A stretch of DNA of 64,000 bases from positions 1 through 64,000 of IMG/VR virus record IMGVR_UViG_3300031787_000096. One strand, given 5' to 3'. Numbering within the stretch: position 1 is the first letter of the stretch; each line of letters begins with the position of its first letter. This DNA comes from a virus. This document shows positions 21-57,940 of the stretch, in pieces. The notes under the pieces were generated by a model. The model was given only the letters and a program-made list of their open reading frames with translations, did no database searches and had not been told where the DNA came from. The position numbers were made by a program, and so were the translations under genes.

Positions 21-83
21 CCCTTTCCTGAAAACCCCTGCGGTGACTGGCGTAAACCCCTGTCCCTGCTTGGTTTCTTGTCA

Positions 84-125
84 CGCCCCCTGTTGGATTC
101 GAACCAACGACCGGCTGCTTAGAAG
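84..125 (-). other. 3' half of a tRNA-Arg(UCU) gene, probable att-site scar
   Basis: Read on the minus strand, this stretch has an anticodon loop CTTCTAA (UCU), the 3' anticodon strand GCAGC, a five-base variable loop, a perfect T arm (GTTGG-TTCGAAT-CCAAC), a seven-base 3' acceptor strand AGGGGGC and a G discriminator base. Upstream of the anticodon loop the sequence no longer pairs (only the two loop-closing pairs form) and no D arm or 5' acceptor strand is present. Phage and island integrases commonly cross over in the anticodon-to-T-arm part of tRNA genes, leaving such a fragment at one end. I infer attL or attR. No tyrosine integrase is seen in the window. Confidence 0.6.
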
Positions 126-255
126 GCTCAGCGTGTAATGCCCGAGAATCACTGCGATAGCTGGCGCCTGTGGCTCTAGTGCCTTGGGTGTGAGAAGGTT
201 TGTGAGAAGGTTCGGGGGTTTCGCGCCCCTTGGAGCCTCTCAGGAAGGTCCTGGG

Positions 256-7113: not shown

Positions 7114-7164
7114 GGCTCCAGCCTTCCGGGGCGTGCAATAGTTGCATCACGCCTGGGCAGAGCA

Positions 7165-7170: not shown

Positions 7171-7295
7171 CAAGAACCCGCGGGAGAAATCTAGCTTCCA
7201 TCAATAGCTTTGCTCTTCCGCGCATGAATACGTGTGCACGGCGTAATCGTGCTAAGGCTATTGTGGGCATTGCTACGGCATCTAGAACTTGCATT

Positions 7296-7961: not shown

Positions 7962-7964
7962 ACC

Positions 7965-12542: not shown

Positions 12543-12575
12543 TGGCGGGCGTGACCCATCCTGACCGGATCACGG

Positions 12576-12986
12576 ATGCTGGGTGCACTGCTCACACCCA
12601 GCCCTGTCGTGAAGGACATCCGGATCACCACCCAGGACGATCTGCCTGGGCCCGATGGCGACGAGCCGTACGACACGTTCGTCAACCAGACCGAGTACGG
12701 CAACGGCCGCTTCCTGCGCACCAACGTGCTCTCGGCCCGGCCCGATCTCAAGAAGTACACGGCCCTGCGGTTCCAGCAGGACGTCAAGCGCCATCCCGAT
12801 GCCGCCGGTCCTGGGCAGGACGTGGTGCTGGTGTTCATGGAGGCGCTGGAGCTGGAGCCGCCGCTGACCCTGGTCTGCAGCGACATCCACCTGCAGATGG
12901 AGGGCTACCCGGTGGAGCAGGGTGCAGTGATCGAGATCCCGCTGCTGCCGCCGTGCAACCGCGGGCCAGCCAAGGGATTCGGCTGA
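12576..12986 (+). CDS. Hypothetical protein (136 residues)
   Basis: The product has a charged, beta-like sequence (VKDIRITTQDDLPGPDGDEP, DTFVNQTEYGNGRFLRTNVL, QDVVLVFMEALELEPPLTLV), ending in a proline-rich tail. No membrane or catalytic motif is seen. A longer frame that joins it to the next gene crosses non-coding sequence and is rejected. It lies 66 bases before the 254-residue gene and is probably the first gene of a three-gene unit with the TPR protein. Confidence 0.55.
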   Translation: MLGALLTPSPVVKDIRITTQDDLPGPDGDEPYDTFVNQTEYGNGRFLRTNVLSARPDLKKYTALRFQQDVKRHPDAAGPGQDVVLVFMEALELEPPLTLVCSDIHLQMEGYPVEQGAVIEIPLLPPCNRGPAKGFG

Positions 12987-13051
12987 GGGGGCTGGGGCCC
13001 GGCACGCTGCCGCCGATACCGTGGGGACCCTGCTCTCCCCTCGGCCCGGCG

Positions 13052-18200: not shown

Positions 18201-18484
18201 TCAAGCGCGTGCTCGACTTGATCCGATCCAGTTGCAAAGGGCGCATCGAGCCCATTCGCGACGTCTGCCGCATTTTCAATGAATGCACAGATGACGGGCG
18301 CAAGATGGATCATTATTCAGACCTTCTCTCAAGCGCTATCCGTTCCATGGTCGAGGTCAAGGAGGGAAAAGATATCGACAGCCTATTTAGCGGCGGAAGC
18401 ACTACAGCGTTAACCAACATCATTCAAGGGCTGGAAGACTTCGAGCTGATTGCGTTTCTGGTCGTACAAGGAGGTCACGTATGA
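15212..18484 (+). CDS. SNF2-type helicase with N-terminal PLD-like region
   Basis: The 1090-residue protein has an N-terminal alpha/beta region (1-170) resembling a PLD-like module without a visible HxK motif, then a SWI2/SNF2 ATPase: motif I DSVGLGKTFTA (about 278), II VVIDESHNF (about 365), III LSATPVNNR, and in the C-terminal half ISEGQNLQDCDFLINYDIHW with RIIQRFGRIDRIGS (about 795-835). Such proteins translocate on duplex DNA. It is the first gene of a tight locus (stop overlaps the DUF4391 start by four bases), so it probably works with the Mod and Res products in restriction of foreign DNA. Codon use is less GC-rich than the phage modules, suggesting separate acquisition. Confidence 0.88.
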   Translation: MEIIDNSSALLGEDLKKALGKGSRLRIAASCFSIYAFEALRHELSAIDELRFIFTAPTFIPAQATDRLKREHREFHIPKSSRERGLYGTEFEIQLRNKLTQRAVARECAEWIRRKAKFSSNTSPAPMQQFIHVSQPGTDAAYMPVSGFTMVDLGYQRGDAVSNFVTRFSEPSHTQVYLQLFEQIWADPEKVKDVTELICDHIASVYQENSPEKIYFLILHNIFRDFLETVDADSLPNDRTGYQETKIWQKLFNFQRDAATGIINKLESFNGCILADSVGLGKTFTALAVIKYYELRNRSVLVLCPKKLADNWRNYNTNLTTNIFAKDRFNYDVLNHTDLSRSSGESYGIPLNRVNWGNYDLVVIDESHNFRNNDIYKDRETRYQKLMNQVIRAGVKTKVLMLSATPVNNRFTDLRNQLALAYEGESDELSRYLKTEVSIEEIFRQAQRAFNEWSSQSPEERTAASILNALSFDFFELLDAVTIARSRKHIETFYDTKDIGKFPQRLKPLSFHCPITYRTDVMGLNDIFAQLSVLKLAVYAPISYVLPSRLRKYEEIYDTQVEGGRGKLKQADRERSLQALMTTNLLKRLESSVQAFRLTLRALSSNISRNLEAIETFEKTGRNIEVSDFLAQSSQFDTEDEDLSGLDEFTVGKKIKISLADMDLPTWKHDLAADLILIEDLIASMEKVEPGDDSKLQHLLGLIKQKVDAPLNPGNRKLLIFTAFADTANYLFANLAPFAQQLGLHVGRVTGSESPKTTLKKVYDFQGVLTLFSPRSKEKAIVFPDETAELDILIGTDCISEGQNLQDCDFLINYDIHWNPVRIIQRFGRIDRIGSPNSQIQLVNYWPDITLDEYINLKERVENRMVITDITATGDDNVLTAKSSEITYRKEQLKRLQDEVIELEDVKAGISITDLGLNDFRMDLLNYVKEHGDLDTVPFGMHAVVPALPEMGLQPGVIFALKNIHDSVNVNQQNRLHPFYLVYIAGDGQIVADHTEVKRVLDLIRSSCKGRIEPIRDVCRIFNECTDDGRKMDHYSDLLSSAIRSMVEVKEGKDIDSLFSGGSTTALTNIIQGLEDFELIAFLVVQGGHV

Positions 18485-19203
18485 CTCTCTACGAATGGCC
18501 ACGCGCCGCTGCATTCGGTCGCGTGATCCCCAAGAACAAGATCTACGAACACGCTGGAGCAAACACTGCACTGAAAGCGACATTCGTGCGTGAGGTTGAT
18601 CAAATTATTTGGTCGCATAAGCTTGCACCTGAGACGGTGAATGTGGTGGCGACCAAGCAGGTGAGTGAAATCCAGGTTTTCCGTATTGCCGCACACAGCG
18701 CAACATTGGATCAGGAGGTGCTGAGTGCTATTGACCAAGCCATTCCCTTTCCGCTCTTTTTTGAGGTGACTAATGGTGAACATGTCATGGTAGCCGCCGC
18801 CTACAAGCGACCAAGCGAAGCCGACAGTAGCCGCTTCGTCCTCGGCAACTACTTTCTGAGTGATTGGTTTCCAGCGAGTGGGCAGCGCACAGCCTTCCCC
18901 GTAGCGCTGAACATGTGCACGCTGTACGAACGTCTTCTTGAGCCTCTGGTAAGGCGGCAGTTGGCCCAGCTGGTTGCCAATGCGAGCGGAATCATGAACT
19001 CGCCGATCGCCCCTGAGGTCGCAGATCAACCAGTTTCACTGGAGGCCCGCATCGCCCAGGCCGAGGCGATCAAGGCAAAGGTCCATGAGGTCATGCGTAT
19101 CAGGGCACGGCTGGCACGAGAGAGACAGTTCAATAAGCGAGTTGCGATCAATGCCGAGCTACGGACAGCCAAACAAGAACTTGAACGATTATCTACAGGG
19201 TAA
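18481..19203 (+). CDS. DUF4391 domain protein
   Basis: The 240-residue protein starts LYEWPRAAAFGRVIPKNKIY EHAG and continues with FVREVDQIIWSHKLAPETVN, EIQVFRI, PFPLFFEV, FPVALNMCTLYERLLEPLV, the DUF4391 pattern, ending with a coiled coil (about 185-240). DUF4391 proteins are known mainly from loci with helicases and type III-like methyltransferases; their role is unknown. AGGAGG precedes the start, and its ATG overlaps the stop of the helicase gene. Confidence 0.85.
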   Translation: MTLYEWPRAAAFGRVIPKNKIYEHAGANTALKATFVREVDQIIWSHKLAPETVNVVATKQVSEIQVFRIAAHSATLDQEVLSAIDQAIPFPLFFEVTNGEHVMVAAAYKRPSEADSSRFVLGNYFLSDWFPASGQRTAFPVALNMCTLYERLLEPLVRRQLAQLVANASGIMNSPIAPEVADQPVSLEARIAQAEAIKAKVHEVMRIRARLARERQFNKRVAINAELRTAKQELERLSTG

Positions 19204-19243
19204 TCCCGTCAAGGCTCCAACCAACTTCTCTAAGACCACCAGC

Positions 19244-21196
19244 ATGGACAAGCTAAAGATGCACAGCCCGAATCTAAGTCAGGAGAACATCTCAAAGATT
19301 CGTGAACTGTTCCCCGCCTGCGTGACGGAAGCACGCGATGAGGCGACAGGCACAGTCCGTCTTGCGGTTGATTTTGATCAGCTCCGTCAGGAGTTGAGTG
19401 ATGAAAGCATAGAAGGTTCGCAGGAGAGATATAGATTAGATTGGCCGGGGAAGAGAAATGCAACTCTACTCGCAAATAGTCCAACGACACAAACCCTCAG
19501 GCCACTCTTAGATGAGAGCGTCGAATTTGAAACCGCAAGGCATCTGGTTATCGAGTCAGACAACATAGACGCGTTGAGGATGCTGCAGGATGCATACCTA
19601 GGTGCATGCAAGGCTATTTACATCGATCCTCCATATAACACAGGTTCCGACTTTATCTACCAAGATAGCTTTGCAACGGACAAGAGATCCTACGGCCTTA
19701 GTTCTGGTGTTGCTGATAGTGAGGGCCGGAAACTTGTTGCGAACACGAATGCCAATGGCCGCTTTCACTCTGATTGGCTCAGCATGATCTATCCAGCCCT
19801 TAAGATAGCCAGAAATCTCTTGACCGAAGATGGCCTTATATTTATCAGCATCGATCAGAACGAGGTATATAATCTTCAACGGCTTGCCTGCGAGGTTTTT
19901 GGAGAAAACAATTTTCTGAATGACTTTATTTGGGTAAACAATCTCAAAGGAAGGCAGATTAGCGGTAGTGGAGCTGCCCGCACGCATGAACACGTGCTTT
20001 TATTTGCCAAGAATGCTGAGGCAGTAGGACCTTTATATACAGACATTGCTTACGTCAAACGCCTAATGCCATCTGTATATCGTGGCTTCGATTATGAAGT
20101 CGAGGAGGATGAGCGCGGTCCCTATGTCATAAAGAATGAGCTTTACAATACAAACTCCAAGTTTAATGAAGATACACGACCAAACCTTGTATACAAAATT
20201 TTCTATAATCCCGCCACAGGTGCGGTGGACACGGGCGATCTTTCTGAGTCACCGGCCAGTGACGACTGGGTAGAAATCCTGCCTCACTCCAATAACAATG
20301 GTAGAAATAGATATCACGCATGGAGGTGGGGGCGAGATAAGGTTAAGAACGAGTATTTTGATCTGCTCTTCAAGAAAGTTGGTTCTAAATGGAAGGTTTA
20401 TACCAAGGTCAGAACCGTTAACAATACGGCGGTTAAAGATCTTATCATGGATATCTCAACTCAGTCCGGATCGCGGGACTGCGAATCTAGGCTTGGAGAA
20501 AGTTTCTTCGACTTCCCAAAGCCGGTTGATCTAGTGGAATTTCTACTCGGGTCGTGTACTAGTTGTGACTCAGATCATATTGTACTTGACTTTTTTGCAG
20601 GATCTGGAACGACCGGTGAAGCAGTATTAAGACTTAATTCCAAGGATGGAGGTAATCGTAGGTTCATCTTAGTTCAGGCCCCAGTTCTCATCAAGGCCGT
20701 CTCTCTAGAAGATTCTACTTATTCGACCATTGCTGATATTACGCGTCAACGCATTCGTGCCGTTATTGAATCACTAAACTCGCCAATTGACTCGGGCTTT
20801 CGATCTCTTTTGGTGGATTCATCAAATATGAAGGACGTGTACTATCTGCCAGATCAGCTGTCGCAGGCTAACTTGCTGGATATGGTGGACAATGTGAAGG
20901 AGGACCGAACGGGAGAAGACCTTTTATTCCAAGTATTAATCGATTGGGGAGTCGACCTTACTCTGCCCATCCGCCGCAGAACGGTGCAGGACAAGACCGT
21001 TTTCTTTGTAGATGATAATTCTCTTATCGCCTGCTTTGAGTCAACTGTTACTGAAGATCTAGTAAAAGAGCTTGCAAGTCTTGAGCCTCTGCGAGTTGTA
21101 TTCCGCGACAATGGCTTTGTCTCGGACGCGGTGAAGATCAACGTCGAGCAGATCTTCCGCCAGCTTTCGCCGACAACCGAAGTAAAGGCAATTTGA
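19244..21196 (+). CDS. mod: Type III restriction-modification DNA methyltransferase (Mod)
   Basis: Read from ATG 19244 (650 residues); the longer frame overlaps the DUF4391 gene too far. Motif IV DPPYNTG is at about residue 128, followed by a long target-recognition region, and the AdoMet-binding motif I appears late as [12 protein letters not shown] (about 448). This beta-class order and DPPY are typical of Mod subunits making N6-methyladenine. The recognition site cannot be read from sequence. It should form the modification part with the Res subunit encoded just after, whose gene starts eight bases after its stop. Confidence 0.92.
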
Positions 21197-21204
21197 GGAC
21201 TGTC

Positions 21205-24200
21205 ATGAAGCTCAGATTCAAGGTCCAGCCCTACCAGACTAATGCGGTCAATGACGTAGTCGACTGCTTCGTTGGTCAGCCAATGATCTCTAGCCTCGCA
21301 TATCGCATCGACCCCGGTAGAAATGGACAGGCAAACTTGTTCGACGAAGGTTTCAAAAATGCCGATCTTGCCCTAACGGAGGTACAAATTCTTAAAAATA
21401 TCCAAGATATCCAACGGCGCCAAAACTTACCAGTTTCGCAATCGACTTCTGAGTTCACCACCTTCGATGGTAAGAGTGCTCGAGTCCCTGCAAAGACGTC
21501 TTACAAGAATGCCGCTTTAGCAGCTTCTCGTATTCATCTCGATGTCGAGATGGAGACCGGTACGGGGAAGACATACTGCTACATCAAGACCATCTTCGAG
21601 ATGAACAAACGTTATGGTTGGTGCAAATTCATTATCATAGTCCCATCTATCGCTATTAGGGAGGGAGCCTATAAGTCGCTCCAGATTACGGCGGAACACT
21701 TCTCTGAAATTTACAGCAAGAAAGCTCGGTTCTTTATCTATAATTCCCAGCGTCCAAATGAGCTGGAAAGCTTTTCATCCGATGCTGGTATCAATGTGAT
21801 GGTGATCAATATTCAGGCGTTCAACGCTCGTGGAGCCGAAAATCGCCGCATTTATGAGGAGCTGGACGACTTCCAGTCACGCAGGCCCATCGATGTGATT
21901 GCCTCGAACCGTCCAATTCTGATCTTAGACGAGCCGCAGAAGATGGAAGGTGCTGCGACGATGGAAGCCCTGCCAAAGTTCAAGCCTTTGTTTATCCTTC
22001 GCTATTCGGCAACCCACCGTACTCATCACAACCGTGTTCACCGGCTGGATGCGCTCGACGCCTACAACCAAAAGCTGGTCAAAAAGATTGCCGTGCTTGG
22101 CATCCAGACCCGCGGGCTAGCCGGTACCAGCTCCTACCTGTATCTAGAGAGTATCGACATCTCAACCAAGGCTCCTGTGGCCCGAATCGAGTTGGAGGTA
22201 AGGCTCAAGTCTGGCGAGATCAAACGCCAAGTCCGCCGGCTTGAATTCCGCGACGACTTGTTCGTCAAGTCCGGTGAGCTTGACCAGTACCGCGGCTTTA
22301 CGATCAGCCAAATCGATGCCGTCAACGACACGGTCGAATTCACCAATGGCATCGTGTTGAGGGCTGGTGAGGCGAATGGCGATGTCTCCGAGCGTGATAT
22401 CCGCCGCATCCAGATTCGTGAAACTATTAAGGCACATCTCGATAAGGAAAAGCAGCTGTTTGTGCAGGGTATCAAGACCCTCTCTCTTTTCTTCATCGAC
22501 GAAGTGGCAAGGTATCGAGATTACGAGCAGGTTGACGAGAAAGGTGAATATGCTCGGGTCTTCGAAGAAGAATATGAACTGCTTAAGACTGAGTATCTCT
22601 CCGAGCTTGCTATTGATAATGAGGCCTATCGGGAGTATCTCGCGGCCATCGATCCAGCCAAGACCCACAATGGTTACTTTTCTAAGGACAAGAAGAGCGG
22701 CCGAGACATCAATGGAGCCATCAAGCAAGAAACTGATGCTGAGACTGGGAAGAAGGTCTCGGTCTCTCAAGACGTTGATGCTTACGACCTAATCTTAAAG
22801 AGAAAAGAGCAGCTCCTTTCTTTTGACGAGCCAACTCGTTTTATCTTCTCCCACTCGGCATTACGTGAAGGGTGGGATAATCCTAATGTATTTACTCTCT
22901 GCATGCTGAAGCACAGCGACAACGTCGTGATGCGTCGCCAAGAGGTGGGACGAGGCTTGCGATTGAGCGTCAACCAGCACGGGGACAGGATGGACCATCC
23001 GGCTGTCGTACACGACATCAACGTGTTGACCGTAGTGGCGAGCGAAAGCTACAAGGACTTTGTGGCCGGTCTCCAAAGGGAAATCGCAGAATCTCTCTCC
23101 TCGCGACCGCGGCAGGCCAATGAGGAGTATTTCACGGGCAAGACATTCACGACCGAACACGGGCCTGTTGAGGTCACCTCTGCTATGGCCAAACAGATCT
23201 ACCGATATTTGGTCAAGAATGACTACACGGACGCCTCGGATCAGATTGCGGATGCCTACCACGTAGCCAAAGCATCGGGGACGCTGGCCGACTTGCCCGA
23301 AGAACTAAAGCCTAACGAAGAGTTGGTGTTTCAGCTTATCGACAGCGTTTTCAGTGATGCTCAACTACCTAAGGTGGATGATGGTCGCAAGCCCAAGACT
23401 AATCCTCTGAACTCGAACTTCGAAAAGAAAGAGTTCCAGGAGCTTTGGGCTCGCATCAACCGCAAGGCGATCTACAAGGTGGAGTTTGACTCAGCAGAGC
23501 TCATCCGTAAGTGCGTTGGCGCGTTGGATAGCGAGCTGCGCGTTACCCCCTTGCAGTACACCGTTCAGGCTGGCGTGCAGATCGAGCAATTGACTGACGG
23601 CCAGCTTCGTGATGGAGATGCCTTCACTGTCACAAGTACGACGACGGAATATGGAAACTCTATCCACTCCCTAGTCAAATACGACCTGGTGGGGAAAGTG
23701 GCCGAGATCGCACATCTGACTCGAGACACAACAGCTACCATACTCTCTCGGATTGCCCCTGGAGTTTTCGAACAGTTCACGAAGAACCCTGAGTCTTTCA
23801 TCACAGAGGCCTCACGGATTATTTCCGAGCAGAAGGCGGCCATGGTGATCGAGCGTCTGGTGTACGACGGAGTCGACGAGAGGTACGATGTTGATATCTT
23901 TACTGCAAACCAGGCCGGCCAAGACTTCTCCCGCGCAACCTCAAAGCTGATGAATCATATTTATGACTACGCGATAACGGATTCAGATGTCGAGAGGGAT
24001 TTCGTGAGGGATCTTGATGCAAGCAGTGAAGTTGTAGTCTACGCAAAGCTGCCGCGTGGATTCCTCATCCCAACGCCGGTCGGCGACTACAACCCCGACT
24101 GGGCAATCTCGTTTAAGGCTGGGAGTGTTAAGCATATCTATTTTGTGGCAGAAACCAAGGGCACAATGTCTTCGATGAAGCTGCGAGCAATCGAGGCGGC

Positions 24201-24324
24201 CAAGATTCAATGCGCCCGCCAGTTTTTCAGCGAGATAAGTCGTTCTGTCGAATCGAATTCCGTCAAATACGATGTGGTTGACAGCTATTCAAGCCTTATG
24301 GATCTTGTTTCCCCACGTGCCTAA
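21205..24324 (+). CDS. res: Type III restriction enzyme, Res subunit
   Basis: I place the start at ATG 21205, with GAGG seven bases before it, rather than the TTG 12 bases upstream. The 1039-residue protein has an SF2 helicase: Walker [10 protein letters not shown] (about 118), Walker [10 protein letters not shown] (about 241), SATHRTHH, and [15 protein letters not shown] with [11 protein letters not shown] (about 550-590). The C terminus has an endonuclease motif, NPDWAI followed about 20 residues later by AETKG, the PD...ExK site (about 968-990). It needs ATP and pairs with Mod to cleave unmodified DNA. All key residues seem intact. Confidence 0.93.
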
Positions 24325-42560: not shown

Positions 42561-43481
42561 ATGGCAGATCTCACCGCTGTTGCTGGTGCTGGCCTGGCCG
42601 CGGGCGCTGCCGCCGCTGCCAAGGTCCGCAAGGGTCTCGATCGCACCACCCAAGCCCTGGCTGTGGCTGCCGGCACGGTGGCGGCATCGCTCAGCGAGCT
42701 CAACAACTTCGGGGTTGATCCCCAGCTCATCAGCCGCATCACATCTGCAGCCTCCAACCACGGCGTGGCAGCGGCAGATCTGCTGGCCAAGCTGCCCGGT
42801 GAGCTGGAGCACTACGGCACCGCAGCGGTTGATGCCTTCCTCAAGGGAGGCGATGCCCTTGGCAAGCACTGGTCCCACATCGAGAGCCGTTTCAACTCCC
42901 CCCACCTGGCCGCTGATGCAGCCAATGGGATTTGGGAGGACGGCTCGCTCAACATCAGCCGCGGCTCCAGCGACATGGGCTGGTTAGAGCGTCTCCGGGC
43001 CAGCACGGACAACCACCTCGATGGACTGCTAGCCGCAGCCCAAACCCCGGAGTTCTGGCAACGCACCCTGGGCAATGCAGTGGAGGCCAGTGCCTATTCA
43101 GCCGCGATCACAGCCGTGGATCAGCTGCTGGTGCACCGCGATGCCTTGCTCAACGGCACCCCGGAAGATCGAAAAGAGCGGCTGCTGCAGATCCTGCAGA
43201 CTAGTGGCCTGATGGCCGCCGGAGCCCTGCCGGTGTCGGTGTTTTTGGCCTTGGCCCTGATGCTCGTGCCGGGCCTGGCGGTGGTGATGGGCCCGCTTGG
43301 GGTGATCGGCAGTGCCGGCCTGGGGTTGAGGCTGATCACCTCAGCCGTGCGTCACCCCAGCCAGCAGGAGCGGCAGGCGGTCCAGCAGTTGCAAGGCCTG
43401 TTGCAGGAGCTGATCTATGCCCTGCAGCGCGACAGCGACGGCAATCTGACCATCACTGTGAAGGCCCAGCCGGCGAGCTGA
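42561..43481 (+). CDS. Membrane-associated protein inside the structural module (306 residues)
   Basis: Transcribed opposite to the portal and neck genes, its end overlapping the portal end by 29 bases. It has an Ala-rich amphipathic N terminus (LTAVAGAGLAAGAAAAAKV), a helical middle (LGKHWSHIESRFNS; TDNHLDGLLAAAQTPEFWQR), and a hydrophobic C-terminal zone, LPVSVFLALALMLVPGLAVV MGPLGVIGSAGLGLRLIT (about 215-255), then a charged coiled tail. Position and direction suggest a moron (cargo gene), perhaps for superinfection control. Family unknown. Confidence 0.58.
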   Translation: MADLTAVAGAGLAAGAAAAAKVRKGLDRTTQALAVAAGTVAASLSELNNFGVDPQLISRITSAASNHGVAAADLLAKLPGELEHYGTAAVDAFLKGGDALGKHWSHIESRFNSPHLAADAANGIWEDGSLNISRGSSDMGWLERLRASTDNHLDGLLAAAQTPEFWQRTLGNAVEASAYSAAITAVDQLLVHRDALLNGTPEDRKERLLQILQTSGLMAAGALPVSVFLALALMLVPGLAVVMGPLGVIGSAGLGLRLITSAVRHPSQQERQAVQQLQGLLQELIYALQRDSDGNLTITVKAQPAS

Positions 43482-45021
43482 TCGGCTGACCAGTCGAGGA
43501 AGCGGGATTGTGGCTCCCCTCTCCGGCTTTGGTCGCCGGGCTGTCATCCAACGTCGGGCTGCTGATGGCGTTGGCCGTGGCCAGCGCTAGCTGGTGGCGC
43601 AGCTCCTCCCGGCTGATCACTTCCTTGTCGAACAGCTCAATCCATTCCTTCACCTGGGGCTGTGGCTGGATCGGTGGGGTGAGCGGGCTGACAGTCACCT
43701 GCAGGCCCGCTCCTGGATCTAGGGGTTCGCCGGTCAGGGCCGTCCAGTGCTGGAGCAGGGTCGAGAACAGCGACGCCTTCTGGATCGCCATCGCCTGCAG
43801 CAGCGCGTAGCTCTGGCTGGCGGTGAGGCTGATCTCCATCTCAGTGCGGGCCGCGCCCCGGTTCTGCGACGGGATCAGGGCATCACGACGCATGGTGTCG
43901 TCGAGGATCTGCAGCCAGGCACGGTGCTCCGCCAGGGACCGTGCCCGGATCTCCACGAACTCGAAGGACGCATCCGCGGGCAGGTCCATGCAGGTGTTGG
44001 GGCCCAGCACCACAGGCCCCGCCTGGCTATTGCCCATGGCATCGACCATGCCCTTGCGCACGCCCACCGGCAGGGCCGTGCGGCTCAGGAGTTCCTCGTA
44101 CTCGCTCTTGCAGCGGAAGTGGTTGAGGTACTGGTGCGCCAGGCCCAGGTGCGGCAGGTCCCCCTCCCCGAAGGCGGAGCCATCGGAGGTGTACCAGCAG
44201 GCCGGCAGCCGGCTGATGCCCTCAAACGTGGTGACCACTGGCTCCTCGCATCGCCAGCCGCTGGTGGCCTGGGGGTCGGCGCAGACAGGGTGATGGGCCA
44301 GCTGCAGCCCCGTGACAGCGTCAGCAGTGAGCAGCTGCAGGCTGCGGAAGTGCCAGCGGTCGGGGGCGTCCGCATCGCTCAGCAGGGCGTTGATCTGCTC
44401 GGTCACCGCTCCTTCGCTGCCGGGGAGCTCTGCGCTGATCGGCCGGTTCACCGGCTCCCGCCAGATGATCCGGCCCGGCAGGCCGTAGGAGACGGGCAGC
44501 TCCCAGTTCAGGCAGTTGGCCCGGGGAACCAACTGCAGGCGAGGCAGCGACAGCCGATCACCGCGGCGCAGGGCCTCCTGCCGGTCACCCTCGCTGGGCC
44601 AGCTGTGCTCGGGGGGAAGCACCAGCACCAGAGCGGCGCCATCGCGGAGCACCAGCAAGTCAGCAGCGGCGAAGAAGACACCAAGGTCCGTGCCCCGCCC
44701 GTCCACGTCGGTGAGCACCGAGCTCAGGCTGGCCGGGAGGCTGATCCAGCTGCCCCTGCTAAGCATCCCGGCATACGTGCGCAGGGCGTCCCGGAAGAAG
44801 CCCGAAGGGCGGGCGGCATCAAGTCGCTTGCGGTAGGCGGTCTCAGGCTCTCGTTCCCCCTTGGGCAGGTAGTGCTCCTTGCGGCTGCTGCCGTCGGGGG
44901 CAGAGAGCAAGGCCCAGCAGTCAGCAGTGATCTGCAGGGAGGGCTGCAGGGTGGTCAGGGTTGGGTGGTTGCCCCAAGGAGCGTCGGAGACAGCATTTTG
45001 CGGCTTGGCAGCTGCGAGCAC
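43453..45021 (-). CDS. Portal protein (DUF4055 family)
   Basis: The 522-residue protein, from GTG 45021, has the DUF4055 pattern: YLPKGEREPETAYRKRLDAA RPSGFFRDALRTYAGMLSRG, LVLRDGAALVLVLPPE, WREPVNRPISAELPGSEG, LPHLGLAHQYLNHFRCKSEY EELL and GAARTEMEISLTASQSYALL QAMAIQKASLFSTLLQHWT. DUF4055 proteins serve as portals in a subset of tailed phages. It lies between the head genes and the terminase genes, with the big helicase insertion separating it from the terminase. Confidence 0.82.
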   Translation of the reverse strand: MLAAAKPQNAVSDAPWGNHPTLTTLQPSLQITADCWALLSAPDGSSRKEHYLPKGEREPETAYRKRLDAARPSGFFRDALRTYAGMLSRGSWISLPASLSSVLTDVDGRGTDLGVFFAAADLLVLRDGAALVLVLPPEHSWPSEGDRQEALRRGDRLSLPRLQLVPRANCLNWELPVSYGLPGRIIWREPVNRPISAELPGSEGAVTEQINALLSDADAPDRWHFRSLQLLTADAVTGLQLAHHPVCADPQATSGWRCEEPVVTTFEGISRLPACWYTSDGSAFGEGDLPHLGLAHQYLNHFRCKSEYEELLSRTALPVGVRKGMVDAMGNSQAGPVVLGPNTCMDLPADASFEFVEIRARSLAEHRAWLQILDDTMRRDALIPSQNRGAARTEMEISLTASQSYALLQAMAIQKASLFSTLLQHWTALTGEPLDPGAGLQVTVSPLTPPIQPQPQVKEWIELFDKEVISREELRHQLALATANAISSPTLDDSPATKAGEGSHNPASSTGQPISSPAGPSQ

Positions 45022-45394
45022 GGGTGCAGGAGGGAGCTGCTTGCTCTTGCCATCGGCGATCTATAGACCTGCTAAGTCTGTGTAGGTAGCTGAACGGGTG
45101 GCCTCCGCCGCGGGAACCATTGCTAATCCTAGGGGACATTGCAGAAAGCCCATGGCTCCCCGGAATAGCCAAACTGCACACAAAGGCCGCTCGGCGTGTT
45201 TCGCTGGACAGGATGCACGAGATCCCTTATTCGAGAGATTGCCAGGGATGAGGCAAGTTGGCGACACCATAAATCATTCAGCCTGAATAGGTATTGGTCC
45301 TCGAAATTACCATGCAAAAGCCGAGAAGCCGAGTCGGCTCGAGGCAACAAACGCGTCTCGCCTTGAATTACAGCTCAGATCAACGAGCAGTCCC
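45022..45394. other. 373-bp junction between portal gene and helicase cargo gene
   Basis: No gene is apparent. It contains the TGGCAAGAGC copy (45043-45053) next to the portal start and then shifts to AT-richer sequence by about 45250-45394, the likely insertion boundary of the helicase gene. No terminal repeats or target duplications were found by eye. Confidence 0.4.
45043..45053 (-). promoter_or_regulatory. TGGCAAGAGC motif, copy upstream of the portal gene
   Basis: ATGGCAAGAGC on the minus strand, 22 bases before the GTG at 45021. Part of the six-copy set; this copy would restart transcription or processing of the virion operon below the inserted helicase gene. Confidence 0.5.
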
Positions 45395-48300
45395 ATGAAC
45401 GAGGTCAACAATCACGTTGATGAAATTTTAAGGATTTGCCAAGAGGCAAATCAACGCCTGCTTATAGCTATGCCTTGGTGGGCAGACGACGAAACGGGCA
45501 AACGAATCCGTCAAGAGGTTGAGACTGCAGCTAGGCGGGGCATCGAAGTGAGAGTTCAGATCAGACCAGATCACTCCAATCGGCGCACAATCCAATCACT
45601 AAGAAGCAGTGGAGCTTATGTCACTGGTTTGCCTCAACTGCACGGGAAAGCGGTATGCAGTGAACAAGAACATGCCCACATCACACTCAACTTCTTCAAC
45701 AAGGATGCACTCAAGAACATAAATTTCGCCGAGTTCAGCAAAGACCAAGGCAAGATCAATGAATTCAGTAGTCAGTTCCGAGAGAGAGAGCAGAGCGTTT
45801 CAGGGCAGCTCGATGGCCCCGAGCTTCATGCTGATGTTAAAGGCCTAATCGAAGAGGCCGACATTCGCAATGCATTGCCTTACAGCAAGCTCAACCCTCT
45901 ACAAAGCCTTTGCGCACGTCACGCGCTGTATGGAGAAGATAATTTACTGGTAATCGCACCAACCGGTGCTGGCAAGACCTTAGTTGGTATTTTAGCGCTG
46001 CTCAGTGCTGCGATTAGGCAAGATGCCAAGGCAGTCTGGCTCGTACCGTCTAGAGCTTTAGCAAAGGAGATAACGAAGGCCCTTGAGAGCTTAAGGCATC
46101 CAAAACTCAACGCCTTATCACTGCTGGGAGGCGAAGACGTGCCAAACGAACTCCTCGAAAGAAATAATTTATGGATTTGCACAACAGAAAAGTATGAATC
46201 TATTTTGAGGAGACAGAGCGCAAATAAAATCACGAATCAGATTTACACGATTGTCATCGATGAAATACATCTCTTGGCAGACAAGGCAAGGGGTGCTCTG
46301 ATCGAGTCGATCATTGCACGCATCAAGGATCAAGCCCCATACCCGCGGATCATTGGCTTGTCAGCCACGCTTGAAAACGAAGAAGAGTTCGCTGGCTGGT
46401 TCAATGCTCGTGTACTAAAAAGCACTTGGAAACCGAATAGCCTCGACAAGGAAGTCATTAGCTATCAGGCTGATAAACGAGAAGATTTTTGGATAATAGA
46501 CAAGAGACGAGAACAGACATTGATTCAAACGCTTAGATCCATCAAGGATGACGACAAAAAGAACGGAGCTACGCTTGTTTTCTGTAGGTCCAAGAATAAA
46601 TGCTTTAAGCAAGCTATATCTCTACTTCGAGACCTCACCGGAGCAGAGGATCTGCTTAAAGGAGTTGACACAAAGCAGCCTCCGTCTAGCGATGTAAGCG
46701 CGCTTCTCTTTCAGAATAGAATTGGAATATACTTTAATGGCTACAGCAAAAGCAATGAGTCTCTGCGTAGGTTTAACAATGCCGAGATAGATTTCCTGTT
46801 CTCAACAACCGGCCTTGCTCAAGGCGTTAATACTAAGGCGAGAACTGTTGTTATTAGCGAGACGACGCTCGGGTGGGATGAACCCCTGGAAATCAATACA
46901 GCCAATCAGATGCTAGGCCGTGCTGGAAGGGGAGAGGGAAACGAAGGATGGGGAATCATTATTTGCCCTGAATATGAAAGAGAAAAGTGGTGCGAGGGGA
47001 TTGATAGAAGTAGCGAAGTTAGAAGTGCTATGAGCAGCAAGCTAATCGATGTCATTCTGGCAGAGATTGCACTACAGAACATTCAGTCTAGTAACGAAGC
47101 AAAGGCGTGGTATTCAAGAACTTTTCAGGCTTTCTGCAGTCAAAAGACCAGTGAGATCGAGCTTGAGATAGATAAGTCTATCAGCTTTCTGCTGCAAGAA
47201 GGCCTTGTGATTCATGGGAAAGATGGTGGCCTTGAGGTTTCAAAGTTTGGCGCTGCGTGCATACGGTTAATGACAGATATTAATAGCTCGATTGACCTGG
47301 TAAAAGCCTTGCACTGCATCACGCCAACTCAGGACATAGAGTGGAATGAGATGCAACTTGTTCTGGCCGTTTCGCAAGCAATAAGATGCGAAGATTTTAC
47401 GGCATTGAAAGAGGACAAGTCATTCTTGCAAATAGCGAGTGAGTGCATAAGCAGGTATCGCCTAGCAGAGAATGGCTCAATGCCGGACTATCTTTTGAAT
47501 CTTATTGCAATCGACTTGCTACTCTACCGAAGGGATGAGATTGACAGCCTGCCTGATGAGCTTTCTGGAATTAAGACTAGATGTCTTCAGTATATCCCTG
47601 AGTCTATCCCAAGATACTTGGCTCTAGTAAATCAGATAGGCGCCCTGGCAAACAACCCATGGATCACTATGTGTGCGCATGATGTATCTAAGCGCATCAA
47701 CTGGCATGGATTGCGCCCAAGGCCTGAAAGAGGTTCTTCTCGTATCATTGGCTTTATTGAATCTCTTAGTGACCCATTGCTTCTCAGGTCAAATTTACCA
47801 GAAGCCTGGAAAGCGGCTCAGGATAAGAACATATCTAGCCCAGATAAAATTCCCAAAGGGACAGAGCGATTTTCGTTCTGCACGAACAAAGAGAGAGCTA
47901 GAGATGGAATGCACAATACTTTTTACATCAACAGGATTGCGATAGAATATATAGATACGGATGACAGTATTAGGATTTCAAATCTACCGGAGGGAACACT
48001 AGAAACGTTTGCGCGTGTTGATTCGTCATGCGGCAGCAATCAGAAGTTTATCGATAGGGCATCAACACTTGACATTAAACTTCCTGTAACAAATAAAGAG
48101 GCCGAAGATTACTCCATTCTGATCTACTCTGCAACACGAAATGACAGAATTCTCTTTAGTGTGACAAAGCAAATCACTAAAGAGATTGTATCCAGCCCGG
48201 AAGATCAACTCAAAAAGATATTTGAAGTGCTTTCCACATCATTGCCCCAGGTGACGATTGCACGAAAGCAACATGGGATAAGAAAGTATCTAAGGGAAAA

Positions 48301-48823
48301 ACTTTTCGGTCCTATGCCACATTCGGATGAATTTGCAGAAGCGATCGCAAAAAAAGATTATCTTGTCGAGATAGCATCCATGTTTAGATTTGCTCATGAA
48401 GCTGATGCTATGACGGCTTGGCGGATCAATGATCTGATCAATGAAGCCATAAAACTAAAGCCCTCCTTGGATTCTGCGCCATTTGATTTCCAGTCAGTTG
48501 CAAATACAATTAGAACGAGAGAAGGTTCGATTCTTGAACGAGAGCTCGTCAAGGCATCACTAGGTATTAATTGCGGTCTAGAAATGGGGCTGGCTTACGA
48601 TAGTAGTGGAGGCGCTATATATGCCCTATTTAGGCAGGATTCGGGGTGGGGTCTATTTCAAAACATTCCATCTCACCGCACACATCATCTGAGAGCAATT
48701 TACCCCGAGTCCTTGGCTGGCAGCATACGGGCAATGACACGTCCGGAACAGACTAAGGAGGCGACAACCCCAAGCTATGCTTGGGTTAACGCCTACTCGC
48801 TCTGCTCGGATTTACTGGCATGA
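45395..48823 (+). CDS. PLD-like domain fused to a Ski2/Hel308-like helicase (1142 residues)
   Basis: Residues 1-110 form a PLD-like module: RLLIAMPWWADDETGKRIRQ, VETAARRGIEVRVQIRPDHS, and PQLHGKAVCSEQEHAHITL with an HxK half-motif and Glu where Asp is usual. The helicase follows: motif I APTGAGKTLVG (about 187), II VIDEIHLLADKARG (about 286), III IGLSATLEN, IV ATLVFCRSKNKC, V FLFSTTGLAQGVNTKARTVV, VI QMLGRAGRGEG (about 504). The C-terminal 550 residues match nothing I know. The gene runs against the virion operon, is distinctly AT-rich, and fits a stand-alone phage-carried defence gene. This function is inferred. Confidence 0.82.
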   Translation: MNEVNNHVDEILRICQEANQRLLIAMPWWADDETGKRIRQEVETAARRGIEVRVQIRPDHSNRRTIQSLRSSGAYVTGLPQLHGKAVCSEQEHAHITLNFFNKDALKNINFAEFSKDQGKINEFSSQFREREQSVSGQLDGPELHADVKGLIEEADIRNALPYSKLNPLQSLCARHALYGEDNLLVIAPTGAGKTLVGILALLSAAIRQDAKAVWLVPSRALAKEITKALESLRHPKLNALSLLGGEDVPNELLERNNLWICTTEKYESILRRQSANKITNQIYTIVIDEIHLLADKARGALIESIIARIKDQAPYPRIIGLSATLENEEEFAGWFNARVLKSTWKPNSLDKEVISYQADKREDFWIIDKRREQTLIQTLRSIKDDDKKNGATLVFCRSKNKCFKQAISLLRDLTGAEDLLKGVDTKQPPSSDVSALLFQNRIGIYFNGYSKSNESLRRFNNAEIDFLFSTTGLAQGVNTKARTVVISETTLGWDEPLEINTANQMLGRAGRGEGNEGWGIIICPEYEREKWCEGIDRSSEVRSAMSSKLIDVILAEIALQNIQSSNEAKAWYSRTFQAFCSQKTSEIELEIDKSISFLLQEGLVIHGKDGGLEVSKFGAACIRLMTDINSSIDLVKALHCITPTQDIEWNEMQLVLAVSQAIRCEDFTALKEDKSFLQIASECISRYRLAENGSMPDYLLNLIAIDLLLYRRDEIDSLPDELSGIKTRCLQYIPESIPRYLALVNQIGALANNPWITMCAHDVSKRINWHGLRPRPERGSSRIIGFIESLSDPLLLRSNLPEAWKAAQDKNISSPDKIPKGTERFSFCTNKERARDGMHNTFYINRIAIEYIDTDDSIRISNLPEGTLETFARVDSSCGSNQKFIDRASTLDIKLPVTNKEAEDYSILIYSATRNDRILFSVTKQITKEIVSSPEDQLKKIFEVLSTSLPQVTIARKQHGIRKYLREKLFGPMPHSDEFAEAIAKKDYLVEIASMFRFAHEADAMTAWRINDLINEAIKLKPSLDSAPFDFQSVANTIRTREGSILERELVKASLGINCGLEMGLAYDSSGGAIYALFRQDSGWGLFQNIPSHRTHHLRAIYPESLAGSIRAMTRPEQTKEATTPSYAWVNAYSLCSDLLA

Positions 48824-48946
48824 AATAATCGTGTTACTCCAAGGGGGCTTGGGTTTTACGGATAGATGCTGCGCGTTCCTGGCTGATGGTCTATTGGCGA
48901 GGATCTCACTTGATGTTTCCATGCTCCCCATCACTGCGGAGTAGAC
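48824..48946. other. Right-hand junction of the helicase cargo gene
   Basis: A 123-bp tail-to-tail gap between the helicase and the minus-strand sigma-like gene. CCAAGGGGGCTTGG (48839-48852) is a short inverted repeat followed by GTTTT and may terminate the helicase transcript. Confidence 0.4.
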
Positions 48947-49591
48947 TCAGTCCTGTGCATCCCATGCCACCACCCGCTGACTGCAGGCGGCTGTGATCTC
49001 ATTCCACCTCTCAGGCTTAACACCGAGAGCAGCAGGCAAATCAGCAAAAGCCGTTCCCAGCCTGTGCATCTTCTGCCCCCGCGCACAAAGCTCCCGCCAG
49101 GAGGCCGGCACCTTGATCAGGAACCCTTTGTCGCGCAGATAGTGATACACCTCCCCATTGGCATAGGTACGGGCATAGGGCCGAAAGGTTCCCCGCTCCG
49201 GTGAATAGCGGCGGGCGGCTTGGATGATGCCCAGCATGGCGATCTGCTCCAGGTCTTCTTTCGGGTGGCCCGTGCGACGGGAGATGTTTCCTGCCACGGT
49301 GGCGGCGATGTCGCGGTGCTGCAGTGCCAGGGCATTGGCAGCGGCGTGGGGATTGACTGGCCGGTGACGACGCGGCTTGGCCGGGAAGGCGATCACCAGC
49401 TGAACGGCATCGCCCAGGTGCTGGGGTCGCGGCCTCGGTCGAGGACCGATCCGAACACGCTGAGCACTGCTGGGCCGCGGCAGACACGTCGCCACCACGT
49501 GCGGCCGCAGCGCCAGTTCGAGCTGGCTTGCCGGTGCCGCCGCACCACGACAAGCGGGGGTTCGCAGGGGCCGGGCGATGGCGTCGGTCAT
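48947..49591 (-). CDS. Short sigma-like protein (region 2 only)
   Basis: The 214-residue protein has a basic, Pro/Arg-rich first 95 residues, then a sigma-70 region 2: NALALQHRDIAATVAGNISR, DLEQIAMLGIIQAARRYSPE RGTFRPYARTYANGEVYHYL RDKGFLIKVPASW. A complete region 4 is not evident; the end (KPERWNEITAACSQRVV) may be a short remnant. It starts three bases after the terminase stop on the same strand. It may work as a late transcription factor that needs a partner, possibly the 24607 product, or be a terminase accessory. Confidence 0.7.
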   Translation of the reverse strand: MTDAIARPLRTPACRGAAAPASQLELALRPHVVATCLPRPSSAQRVRIGPRPRPRPQHLGDAVQLVIAFPAKPRRHRPVNPHAAANALALQHRDIAATVAGNISRRTGHPKEDLEQIAMLGIIQAARRYSPERGTFRPYARTYANGEVYHYLRDKGFLIKVPASWRELCARGQKMHRLGTAFADLPAALGVKPERWNEITAACSQRVVAWDAQD

Positions 49592-49594
49592 TGC

Positions 49595-51295
49595 TCAGCG
49601 GCTGAACACCATCGGCACCGGCGAGCTGCCGTAACCCCGACCCCGCCAGAACTGGGCCTCGATCCAGAGCACCCCCTGGCAGAAGGCATCCACCTGGTCA
49701 TCCACCCCGCCCCGGGGGGAGAAGGCCAGCAGCTCCTCGATCAGGGAGTCGGCCTTGCGGGCAAAGCGCACCTGGCCCGCCTCCACCAGCGGGGCGACGG
49801 CATGGGCGCGTGAGGCCTTGCTGCCCTTGGGCGGGATGGCGATCAGGCCCGGCAGCTGGCGCTTGAGTAGCTGGCAGACGGCTGGGCCGTTCGCCGCGTC
49901 CTCGATCAGGACTGCGTTGGGGCGCAGACCCTGCCGCTCCAGCGACGCGAGTGAGGCCAGCAGGAACTTGATCACCCCCGGCAGATCCAGCCGCTGACGT
50001 TGGGCCCAGAGCGCTTCGATCTGAAGCTCCGCCCACGGGTCCGGGCCGCCCGCGAGGGGGTGAGTGACGTTCACACCCCTGCTCGCTCCTTGGGCTCCGG
50101 CCGCGTTGGCGGCCAAGGCCAGGCCTTGTCGCCGCGCCTCAGCTGCCGGATGCCGCTGGGGCTCCAGCAAGCCCAGCAGGGCAAAGCCGCAGGCGTCGTT
50201 CTCCTTGCCGTCCTTGAAGCTCAGGTCGCAGCTCAGCACCAGGGGCGCGTATCGGCGGGGCTGGCCTGGGGCGACCGGCAGCGGCGACTGAATCCAGTCC
50301 TTGCGGAACAGCAGACCCTCCGCTGGGCTGGGCCGCTGCTGGTAGAGGGCATTCCACCAGTAGGACCCAAGGCGGGTGCGGATGCGCTGCAGCACTGCCA
50401 GCGGCACCCGCTCCGGGCAGAGGGGCTCCCCGGGCTGACGCCAGTCGGGGACCTTCTTGCAGGTATGCGGAATCTGCATTGAAATCGCTTCCGGCTCGGC
50501 GATGGCCGGCAGGTTGAGCACCGTCCAGTGCTCAGGGTTCTCCTCGGCCTCCTGCTCCAGCAGCCAGGCGGTCATGTCGTGGTGGTCCCAGCGGGTCTGC
50601 ACCACCACCTGGGCCGCCGGGAGCAGAGCTCCATCGGCTGTGAGGCCAGGTTCGGCGCGGGTGAACCAGACGCTCTTGAGCCAGTCGATCAGCCGTTCGC
50701 GCTGTAGCGCCGACTTGGCGTCCTCCGGCCCCTTGTAAGGGTCATCGATGATCCCGAGGTTGTAGCCCTTGCCCGTAAACGGCCCCCTCACACCGGCTGC
50801 GATGCAGCCACCGCGCTGGGGGGTGAGCCAATTGCCCACGGCGGCGGAGTCCTTGGAGAGGGCGTGGCCGGTGAGGCGGTAGTAGTGCCGGGCCTCGCGG
50901 GAGTGGGCATAGGCAAGCTCACCGGAGTAGCTGGCGATCGCGCAGAACAGCTCCGGGTGCCGGCTCACCCAGTAAGCAGGGAACAGGCGCGAGACCAGCT
51001 GACTTTTTCCGTGGCGGGGCGGACAACAGACGATCAGCCGGGTCACCTGGCCATCAGCCACCTGCTGCAGGAGATCGATCAACAGCTCGGACAGCCGGTG
51101 GAACTGGAAGCTGGGGAAGGCCGAGCGGATGAAGTCGCGGAACAGCAATGCCTGGCCCGTTGTTGTGACCCGATCGGGGTCGGGAACGCCCAGCAGGCCC
51201 CAGTCGGCCCACAGGTCGGTGGCGGGGTCCAGCAGCAACCCGCCACCGCTGGTCGCTGTTGGTGTGGGCCTGGTCGTGGAGGCGATGCGACCCAT
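49595..51295 (-). CDS. Terminase large subunit
   Basis: The 566-residue protein has an ATPase with a Walker A variant CCPPRHGKSQLVS (about 89-101), the phage TerL form, FCAIASYSGELAYAHSREAR, and Walker B LGIIDDPYKGPEDAKS (about 180), followed by QTRWDHHDMTAWLLE. The nuclease half has LVLSCDLSFKDG (first Asp), ALWAQRQRLDLP, NAVLIEDAANG and GVDDQVDAFCQG (late Asp). It cuts and pumps DNA into the prohead at the portal. About 75 residues between the two nuclease aspartates (QRHPAAEARRQGLALAANAA GAQGASRG) look like a low-complexity insertion. Overlaps the TerS-like gene by one base. Confidence 0.92.
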   Translation of the reverse strand: MGRIASTTRPTPTATSGGGLLLDPATDLWADWGLLGVPDPDRVTTTGQALLFRDFIRSAFPSFQFHRLSELLIDLLQQVADGQVTRLIVCCPPRHGKSQLVSRLFPAYWVSRHPELFCAIASYSGELAYAHSREARHYYRLTGHALSKDSAAVGNWLTPQRGGCIAAGVRGPFTGKGYNLGIIDDPYKGPEDAKSALQRERLIDWLKSVWFTRAEPGLTADGALLPAAQVVVQTRWDHHDMTAWLLEQEAEENPEHWTVLNLPAIAEPEAISMQIPHTCKKVPDWRQPGEPLCPERVPLAVLQRIRTRLGSYWWNALYQQRPSPAEGLLFRKDWIQSPLPVAPGQPRRYAPLVLSCDLSFKDGKENDACGFALLGLLEPQRHPAAEARRQGLALAANAAGAQGASRGVNVTHPLAGGPDPWAELQIEALWAQRQRLDLPGVIKFLLASLASLERQGLRPNAVLIEDAANGPAVCQLLKRQLPGLIAIPPKGSKASRAHAVAPLVEAGQVRFARKADSLIEELLAFSPRGGVDDQVDAFCQGVLWIEAQFWRGRGYGSSPVPMVFSR

Positions 51296-56524: not shown

Positions 56525-57940
56525 ATGGCCCCGATCGTCCTGCGCGACTATCAGCAGCAGCTGCTGGCCGACCTCCGCGCTGCCCTCAAGATCCACCGCC
56601 GGGTCTGTGCGGTGATGCCCACCGGTGCGGGCAAGGGCCAGACCATCGGCGCCATCGTCCAGGGCGCGGCCGGCAAGGGCCGGCGGGTGCTGGTGCTCGC
56701 CCACCGGGCCGAGCTGATCGAGCAGCTCACCGGAACTGTGCGTGCCTGGGGGCTGGAGCCTGACGTGATCGCTCCTGGCCAAACGCTGCAGGGACGGCAG
56801 GTCGCCGTGGGCTCGGTGCAGACCGTCGCCCGGCGGCTTGAACTGCTGCCGCCGCCGGATCTGATCATTCAGGACGAGGCCCACCACCTGGTCGCCGGCA
56901 ACGTCTGGGGCCGGATCATCGAGGCCTGGCCGGGCGCCCATCTGATCGGCAAAACCGCCACCCCGGAACGCCTCGACGGCAAGGGGTTGGGAGTAGAGGC
57001 CGGCGGCTATTTCGAGGCCCTGGTGCTGGGTCCCTCAGCGGGCTGGCTGGTCGAAGAGGGCTGGCTGGCAAAACCCCGAGTCTTCTCCTGGCCAGGTGCC
57101 AGGAACAGCAAGCTCCGCCGCCGCATGGGCGAGTTCGACCTGGAGCAGGCGGCACGCGCCTACGGGGACCGGGCCGCCATCGGCGATGCGGTGTCGCACT
57201 ACCGCCGCCGGCTTCACCCAGGCACCGCCATCTGTTTTTGCTGCACGATCGACCATGCCGAGCAGATGGCCTCGGCTTTCCGCGCTGCGGGAATCCGGGC
57301 CGCGGCGGTGAGCGGCGGTACCCCAGCCGAGGAACGCAAACGCCTGATCGCCGGGCTCGGTACCGGCGAGGTGGAAGTGCTCAGCAGCTGCATGATCATT
57401 TCCGAGGGCACCGACATCCCCTCAGTCGGCGGCGCGATCCTGATGCGCCCCACAGCCTCCCTGAGCCTCTACTTGCAGATGGTCGGCCGGGCCCTGAGGC
57501 CCGCGCCGGGGAAGCAGGAGGCGGTGATCCTCGATCACGTCGGCAATGCCCATCGCCACGGCCTGCCGACCGATGAGCGCGAGTGGAACCTGGCCGGCCG
57601 CCGCCGGCGGGTAGGCGTCTCGATTCCGATCAAGGACTGCTCGGTCTGCTTCTGCAGCTGTCCCAGCGCTGCGCAGGTTTGCCCCGACTGCGGCCACCTG
57701 TTCCTCGCCGAAGAACGGGATGAGCAGCGCCGCGGGTTGCAGCAGCTGGAGGGCGAGCTGGTTGAAGTGACGGGCGCCGCCCGCCACCGGCCCAAACCCA
57801 ACCAGCAGCAGCGGCCCCGGCGCACGCACCCGGCAGCCGGCTGCAAGACCTTCGAGCAGCTGCTGCAGCGCGAGCAGGAGCGCGGCTACAAGCCGGGCTG
57901 GGCCAGGCATGTGTGGGCCGCCCGGCAACGCAGCGCATAG
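56525..57940 (+). CDS. SF2 DEAD/DEAH helicase, phage type
   Basis: The 471-residue protein has PIVLRDYQQQLLADL at the start, Walker A MPTGAGKGQTIGAI (about 35-48), Walker B LIIQDEAHHL (about 118-127), GKTATPERLDG, and C-terminal motifs SSCMIISEGTDIPSVGGAIL with YLQMVGRALRPAPGKQEAVI LDH (about 322-342). After this comes a Cys cluster CSVCFCSCPSAAQVCPDCGH LFLAEERDE, a zinc-binding site. The size and composition are usual for phage helicases that help recombination or replication. The zinc part is an addition to the common form. Confidence 0.88.
   Translation: MAPIVLRDYQQQLLADLRAALKIHRRVCAVMPTGAGKGQTIGAIVQGAAGKGRRVLVLAHRAELIEQLTGTVRAWGLEPDVIAPGQTLQGRQVAVGSVQTVARRLELLPPPDLIIQDEAHHLVAGNVWGRIIEAWPGAHLIGKTATPERLDGKGLGVEAGGYFEALVLGPSAGWLVEEGWLAKPRVFSWPGARNSKLRRRMGEFDLEQAARAYGDRAAIGDAVSHYRRRLHPGTAICFCCTIDHAEQMASAFRAAGIRAAAVSGGTPAEERKRLIAGLGTGEVEVLSSCMIISEGTDIPSVGGAILMRPTASLSLYLQMVGRALRPAPGKQEAVILDHVGNAHRHGLPTDEREWNLAGRRRRVGVSIPIKDCSVCFCSCPSAAQVCPDCGHLFLAEERDEQRRGLQQLEGELVEVTGAARHRPKPNQQQRPRRTHPAAGCKTFEQLLQREQERGYKPGWARHVWAARQRSA

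Follow-up and report, generated by a model that had tools for sequence, protein, structure and literature searches.

Here we describe a 1142-codon gene in a viral genome, IMG/VR record IMGVR_UViG_3300031787_000096 (66865 bases), of which positions 1 to 64,000 were analyzed (hereafter the window). We propose, with a probability of about 0.62, that this gene encodes an anti-phage defence enzyme that acts as a single-gene system and is carried by a prophage within a cargo hotspot, the gap between a sigma-factor-like gene and the portal gene (sigma-portal gap; features are collected in Table 1). The predicted protein joins an N-terminal phospholipase D (PLD)-type domain to a superfamily 2 (SF2) helicase of the Ski2/Hel308 kind and a long C-terminal region. 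The site, composition, mobility and selection of the gene together fit a defence gene, and from these we infer its defence activity.

Scanning IMG/VR with the terminase yielded 79 distinct loci, of which 31 with 56-95% identity (L007 to L037) were examined; 28 span both borders of the gap, and L014, L015 and L016 end early. These loci are not all independent, as the gaps of L023 and L024 are identical and L007 and L034 share one contig. Compared with its closest relatives, the window loses DNA similarity at the stop codon of the sigma-factor-like gene and regains it just upstream of the portal start, and in all 28 relatives the content of the gap (614-5043 bases, median about 2080) differed from that of the window by DNA or translated comparison. 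Among the remaining gaps themselves, short edge segments or one accessory open reading frame (ORF) are held in common. In every one of the 28 relatives the gap is lower in GC than the DNA on either side of it (mean 0.504 versus 0.677), and the longest gap ORF runs opposite to terL, the terminase large subunit gene, in 22 of 28, as it does in the window. Phages whose terminase or portal is 89-95% identical hold different cargo; since such close relatives carry other cargo, cargo and phage backbone are not co-inherited.

Family searches identified established defence systems in 5 of the 28 gaps: ietAS in L009 (IetA, E 2e-73; S8 protease, E 8e-30), Shedu in L012 (SduA_C, E 1e-23), Lamassu in L030 (LmuA, E 8e-118; LmuB, E 3e-165) and GmrSD in both L020 and L029. 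Another seven gaps encode conflict-type domains, namely FRG (L021), AAA_15 of the OLD type (L023, and L024 by identity), TIR (L037), HNH_5 (L017), DUF3800 (L028) and an addiction antidote (L036). The initial annotation had suggested looking for alternative cargo at this position in related phages, and the search bore it out; the outcome that it named as unfavourable, a gap empty of cargo and invariant in all relatives, is not what the 28 gaps present. Pfam was run on gap ORFs in batches of 20, 9 and 10 and PADLOC on 10, with several ORFs in both; L019 (which resembles L018), L024 and L035 are without a scanned ORF. In a control scan of 10 core phage proteins from the window, one, a small HTH protein, matched any PADLOC model (E 0.001). 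Of 10 gap ORFs, picked mainly where Pfam had given nothing or had still to be applied, 3 did so; both samples are small and non-random. Five cargo ORFs of 296-627 residues (L008, L013, L027, L032 and L034) gave no Pfam match at E 0.01, and the four of them scanned with PADLOC (all except that of L027) gave none at 0.001; we regard them as candidate new defence genes. With the same flanks enclosing unrelated cargo rich in defence genes, the sigma-portal gap qualifies, on sequence grounds, as a prophage defence hotspot.

The arrangement recalls P2-like phages, whose defence hotspots adjoin the portal gene (PMC9122126). Variable anti-phage cargo beside the portal is common to both; the P2-like phages form a different phage group, and their left border is a replication gene, whereas here it is the sigma-factor-like gene and the terminase. 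Two separate observations were made at these loci. Contig IMGVR_UViG_3300034063_001922 (76044 bases) carries two terminase-portal modules, L007 (95% terminase identity) and L034 (58%), each with different cargo, and represents either two neighbouring prophages or a chimera. At L020 (12840-14769), a GmrSD_N protein adjoins a RiboL-PSP-HEPN protein, making a restriction-like and toxin-like pair.

Within the window, the cargo gene is the sole gene of the gap. An ORF of 1142 residues at ~45% GC is too long to be due to chance; the gene is real and was found as first annotated, on the strand opposite to portal and terL. It does sit beside the portal, as had been stated; the gap had been described as lying between terminase and portal, whereas a sigma-factor-like gene separates terL from the cargo. 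No second gene was found in 45022-48946, where the other mechanically called ORFs (104 and 90 residues, with a floor of 80) fall inside the cargo gene. GC content at 45-49 kb is 0.44-0.52 and that of both flanks 0.66-0.69, and GC at third codon positions is 0.454 in the cargo gene, whereas the genes for portal, terL, major head protein, primase and helicase, five core genes, have values of 0.843-0.863. Promoter and terminator scans gave results at chance level, and no transposon terminal inverted repeats were seen around the gene. The low GC had been read as a sign of recent gain. The lower GC itself stands, but it is a standing property of the site in all 28 relatives, and a 79% identical copy lies beside another portal, so that the gain need not be recent.

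This full-length copy, on contig OMIY01000379.1, is the only other one found at a site of this kind. It adjoins a portal fragment that is 71% identical over 69 residues and ends near residue 88 (the contig has 4378 bases, and the portal end is possibly an assembly break). Between gene and portal, too, the contig resembles the window. Because this copy stands beside another portal, the comparison shows that more than one phage lineage has had the gene at this site. Between the two copies, nonsynonymous divergence (dN) was 0.12 and synonymous divergence (dS) 1.5, which is near saturation, giving a dN/dS of ~0.08; the C-terminal half gave ~0.09. The cargo gene is under purifying selection. A 30% identical homologue of the same architecture, including HxK(x4)D and N-x-N motifs, is carried by a Rhodococcus conjugative plasmid. 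In other searches, 17 INPHARED records matched in the helicase region only, none covering 80%; scans of viral contigs with the whole protein and with one alignment (A1) gave no relative. With a second alignment (A2), 67 candidate stretches were obtained, including 11 relatives, of which two (L093 and L094) were inspected. Across 58 genomes of the phylum of the genome bearing the 79% identical copy, no further copy was found. None of the homologues found is a known host DNA-repair gene; the initial annotation had said that homologues of that kind would count against it.

The helicase assignment was upheld. The SF2 motif set is complete, with motif I at residues 188-195, Ia at 218-225, TTEK at 263-266, DEIH at 289-292, SAT at 323-325, FCRSK at 396-400, V at 471-479 and VI at 505-512. 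Pfam matched DEAD (5.5e-27), Helicase_C (5e-8) and, weakly, HTH_61; the best curated models are of the Hel308 type (NCBIfam PRK02362, 193 bits over residues 165-644), and PDB sequence matches were chains of Slh1, Brr2 and Hel308. Judged by both its motifs I-VI and its group-specific similarity, the helicase is an SF2 member of the Ski2/Hel308 group. Similarity to relatives that lack the PLD domain (viral contig L093 and two actinobacterial plasmids) extends to about residue 817, so the helicase unit probably ends there, and the middle region up to this point may correspond to a Hel308-like helical domain. For residues 641-1142, no convincing PDB relative was found by sequence (best E 0.14), and the last ~67 residues gave a short, weak match to the Rhodococcus homologue (E 0.002 in a single comparison). 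Whole-protein structure prediction from a four-row alignment reached a predicted local distance difference test score (pLDDT) of 39; Foldseek with this model returned only Ski2, Brr2 and Hel308 and, at a lower rank, HamB.

At the N terminus, the HxK half-site reported in the initial annotation was located as H83-G-K85-x4-E90, followed by T97-x-N99-F100 and N108-x-N110. In the Rhodococcus homologue the corresponding elements are HEK-x4-D, S-x-N-F and N-x-N, equally spaced, and H83, K85, N99 and N108 are invariant across three homologues, down to 24% identity over the domain. When the domain was modelled alone (pLDDT 48), the top PDB ranks in Foldseek were PLD3, PLD4, Zucchini, a phospholipase D and Nuc, and the best 18 of 50 listed matches all belonged to the PLD superfamily, including the pseudo-PLD FAM83. 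These neighbours lend weak support to a PLD-type domain, since a model of such low confidence may mislead.

Several observations weigh against a defence function. In 16 of the 28 gaps no defence or conflict-domain match stood clearly over the gathering score in the scanned ORFs; these comprise pentapeptide repeats (L007), an alpha/beta hydrolase (L033), a methyltransferase (L026), an HNH match barely over the cut-off (L034), gaps with sub-threshold matches only (L010, L011, L022, L025 and L031) or no match (L008, L013, L018, L027 and L032), and the two outside the scan (L019 and L035). Among the 25 PADLOC families listed out of 57 hits to the cargo protein, none matches over the full length, and the neighbourhood of the Rhodococcus homologue holds no recognisable defence island. 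The Pfam PLDc_2 match (residues 14-129, E 0.0028) falls under the gathering score, and the PLD part of the gene is saturated at synonymous sites and gives no estimate of dS. The canonical single-HKD motif of the Nuc type is HxK(x4)D(x6)GSxN, relative to which that of the window is degenerate, with D changed to E, GS to IT and one residue fewer. Such changes, together with the sub-gathering match, speak for a nuclease-dead relic, or for a repair gene taken from a host that plays no part in defence; we consider this highly improbable given the intact frame, the low dN/dS and the four invariant motif residues, and no copy inspected lies in a host-repair neighbourhood.

The remaining observations of this kind concern the relatives without a PLD domain, which also lack the long C terminus: an 869-residue protein on L093 (2191-4800; 30% identical over 161-804), a copy with a broken frame on a Frondihabitans plasmid (L004, about 11444-14052) and one from Embleya. 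L093, the closest viral relative outside the prophage group, has SNF2, RNase H and DnaB-like genes nearby (read by eye), and the Frondihabitans copy has RNase H, DnaB-like and DEAD/DEAH helicase genes (by annotation). Because these two relatives sit among replication genes, the helicase motor may derive from phage replication. The two neighbourhoods match and apparently belong to one phage-plasmid lineage. An accessory helicase-nuclease that aids the phage's own replication or recombination (restart, junction processing or host-DNA breakdown), with the variable site incidental, would account for this setting and for the best PHROG match, named 'Holliday junction branch migration helicase'; Hel308 itself acts at stalled forks. 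We nevertheless find it unlikely: the relatives in question are without the PLD domain and C terminus, the site swaps defence genes, and none of 30 related phage records, a good number of which are fragments, carries the gene anywhere (a 31st, L093, has the PLD-less helicase), so that it is dispensable. In addition, the phage encodes its own helicase (56525-57940), primase and single-stranded DNA-binding protein, so the cargo gene is not required for the first two roles. The single-gene defence system first proposed for this gene is supported, with its activity still an inference, and the ancestral helicase may have had a role in replication.

The cargo protein resembles several known systems in outline. 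Like Hachiman (HamA/HamB, with its variant AbpAB), it couples a Ski2-like SF2 helicase to a nuclease, here a putative one, and HamB models match its helicase core (E 5e-28). HamB is a DNA helicase that resembles Hel308 and controls the HamA nuclease (PMC12278908). In the cargo protein, in contrast, the putative nuclease is PLD-type, N-terminal and in the same chain, and the C terminus is unrelated by sequence; there is no adjacent hamA/DUF1837 gene in the gap, and the top PADLOC HamB model matches in two stretches, the best covering only 176-343 (157-324 of 864). DruE of Druantia III resembles the cargo protein in being a single large SF2 helicase that carries PLD domains; it is a helicase-nuclease and acts on replication intermediates that contain single-stranded DNA (PMC13192584). 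DruE differs in being of the YprA family, with a double C-terminal PLD and a DruH partner, whereas the cargo protein is nearest to Hel308/Ski2 models, has one N-terminal half-PLD and has no druH-like partner in the gap. A type 2 BREX-related HKD-helicase (PMC12839542) likewise joins an HKD domain, a DNase, at its N terminus to an SF2 helicase, as does PADLOC family C3a139 in the form of HKD plus Snf2; the BREX-related proteins, however, are of the Swi2/Snf2 type and belong to multi-gene systems with a methylase (DUF499 ATPase, methylase and DUF3780), and the cargo gene is alone. BrxHI of BREX type 2 matches in the helicase core only (156-402), and the pglX/pglZ/brxC core is absent from the gap. 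The DNA-repair helicases Hel308 and HELQ provide the best curated models, but the 193 bits compare with a curated cut-off of 887, and the cargo protein adds the PLD domain and ~325 C-terminal residues. As the cargo gene lacks, for each system, a defining feature that was tested, it is, by sequence, outside Hachiman, BREX type 2, Druantia III and the BREX-related HKD-helicases. In our searches of one open-access library we saw no account of a one-gene PLD-Ski2/Hel308 defence or of this sigma-portal hotspot.

We hypothesize that the cargo protein combines in one chain the division of labour seen in HamB/HamA and DruE. The Hel308-type motor would load on single-stranded tails or forks produced by the replication or recombination of another phage and move 3' to 5'. 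Since a single half-site makes up the PLD domain, two protomers would have to meet to cut; their N-terminal domains would pair into one HKD active site and cleave the engaged DNA, and this need for a dimer might keep the enzyme inactive until several motors have loaded on phage DNA. The C-terminal half may hold or sense the substrate and keep the nuclease quiet on intact chromosomal DNA. The host lysogen would be protected, and the prophage would profit by excluding competitors. The cargo could instead be a toxin, an addiction-like module or an exclusion factor that damages host DNA or RNA abortively, with no targeted cleavage of phage DNA. TIR, FRG, HEPN and addiction-antidote domains in other gaps are in keeping with this, as are the RNA helicases among Ski2 relatives and the ability of PLD domains to act on RNA or DNA (Zucchini, NucT and PLD3 are among the Foldseek neighbours); as the gap holds neither a partner gene nor one for an antitoxin, and with DNA-acting Hel308 proteins as the nearest helicase models, we give it only a small chance of being right.

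The defence reading also fits the rest of the prophage, which has two further low-GC islands with predicted defence-type genes. One (15212-24324) encodes an HKD plus Snf2 helicase, a 240-residue protein and two type III enzymes, a methylase and a restriction enzyme; the first of these (15212-18484; PADLOC C3a139, E 3e-130) is a second N-terminal HKD-helicase in the prophage. The other (4343-8414) holds the PADLOC candidates PDC-M45A/M45C and PDC-M72B and two unmatched ORFs. Near its ends the record carries a perfect 45-bp direct repeat, adjoined at the tRNA-Arg copy by a 430-residue protein (L104:3321-4613) with tyrosine-recombinase-like motifs by eye and no Pfam match; the record would thus represent a whole prophage of ~66.7 kb integrated in tRNA-Arg. 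The nearest named terminases are those of the cyanophages S-CBS2, S-CRES1-3 and PSS2 (33-40% identity), which makes a picocyanobacterial host likely.

Table 1. Features of the cargo gene, its site and the prophage (window positions unless stated otherwise; aa, amino acids)
Feature	Position	Strand	Basis or remark
Cargo gene, 1142 aa	45395..48823	+	ATG start; PLD-type domain, Ski2/Hel308-type SF2 helicase, C-terminal region
Single-HKD PLD-type domain, aa 1-147	45395..45835	+	weak Pfam PLDc_2 match
Catalytic-type motif, aa 83-110	45641-45724	+	HGKAVCSE...TLNFF...NIN; motif reading
SF2 helicase core with winged-helix-like segment, aa 163-605	45881..47209	+	Pfam, NCBIfam and PDB matches
Middle region, aa 606-817	47210..47845	+	conserved in PLD-less relatives; helical in low-confidence model
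C-terminal region, aa 818-1142	47846..48823	+	dN/dS ~0.09 (C-terminal half)
Variable (cargo) segment	45068..48961	.	DNA similarity to close relatives
Portal gene, right border, conserved	43453..45021	-	phrog_145, E 1e-30
Sigma-factor-like gene, left border, conserved	48947..49591	-	phrog_351, E 2e-15
terL	49595..51295	-	phrog_38, E 6e-78
45-bp repeat, left copy	83..127	.	putative att site
45-bp repeat, right copy	record 66739-66783 (L104 4740-4784)	.	3' part of tRNA-Arg(UCU) gene; putative att site
Candidate cargo ORF, L008	L008:8362-10245		
Candidate cargo ORF, L013	L013:4724-6160		
Candidate cargo ORF, L027	L027:2402-3379		
Candidate cargo ORF, L032	L032:13270-14160		
Candidate cargo ORF, L034	L034:12419-14236		

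A broader proposal, more tentative and somewhat short of even odds, is that the cargo gene represents a hitherto unseen class of nuclease-helicase immunity encoded by one gene, a self-sufficient counterpart of Hachiman in which a half-PLD nuclease is fused to a Hel308-type motor and the C terminus serves as sensor. Prophages and plasmids would have carried it across distant bacterial phyla. On this proposal the sigma-portal gap of tRNA-integrating, probably picocyanobacterial prophages would be an undescribed hotspot, and its unassigned cargo, such as the five unmatched ORFs, would be further new systems. Immunity by Hachiman, Druantia, AbpAB and BREX-related systems usually involves several proteins, which makes sensing hard to separate from cutting; if our reading is true, a one-chain Hel308-type system would offer a simple model for how helicases distinguish phage from host DNA. 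The hotspot has wider significance, as it gathers ~27 different cargo segments in a single defined place, several without a recognisable family, in a probably picocyanobacterial phage group whose defences are little known.

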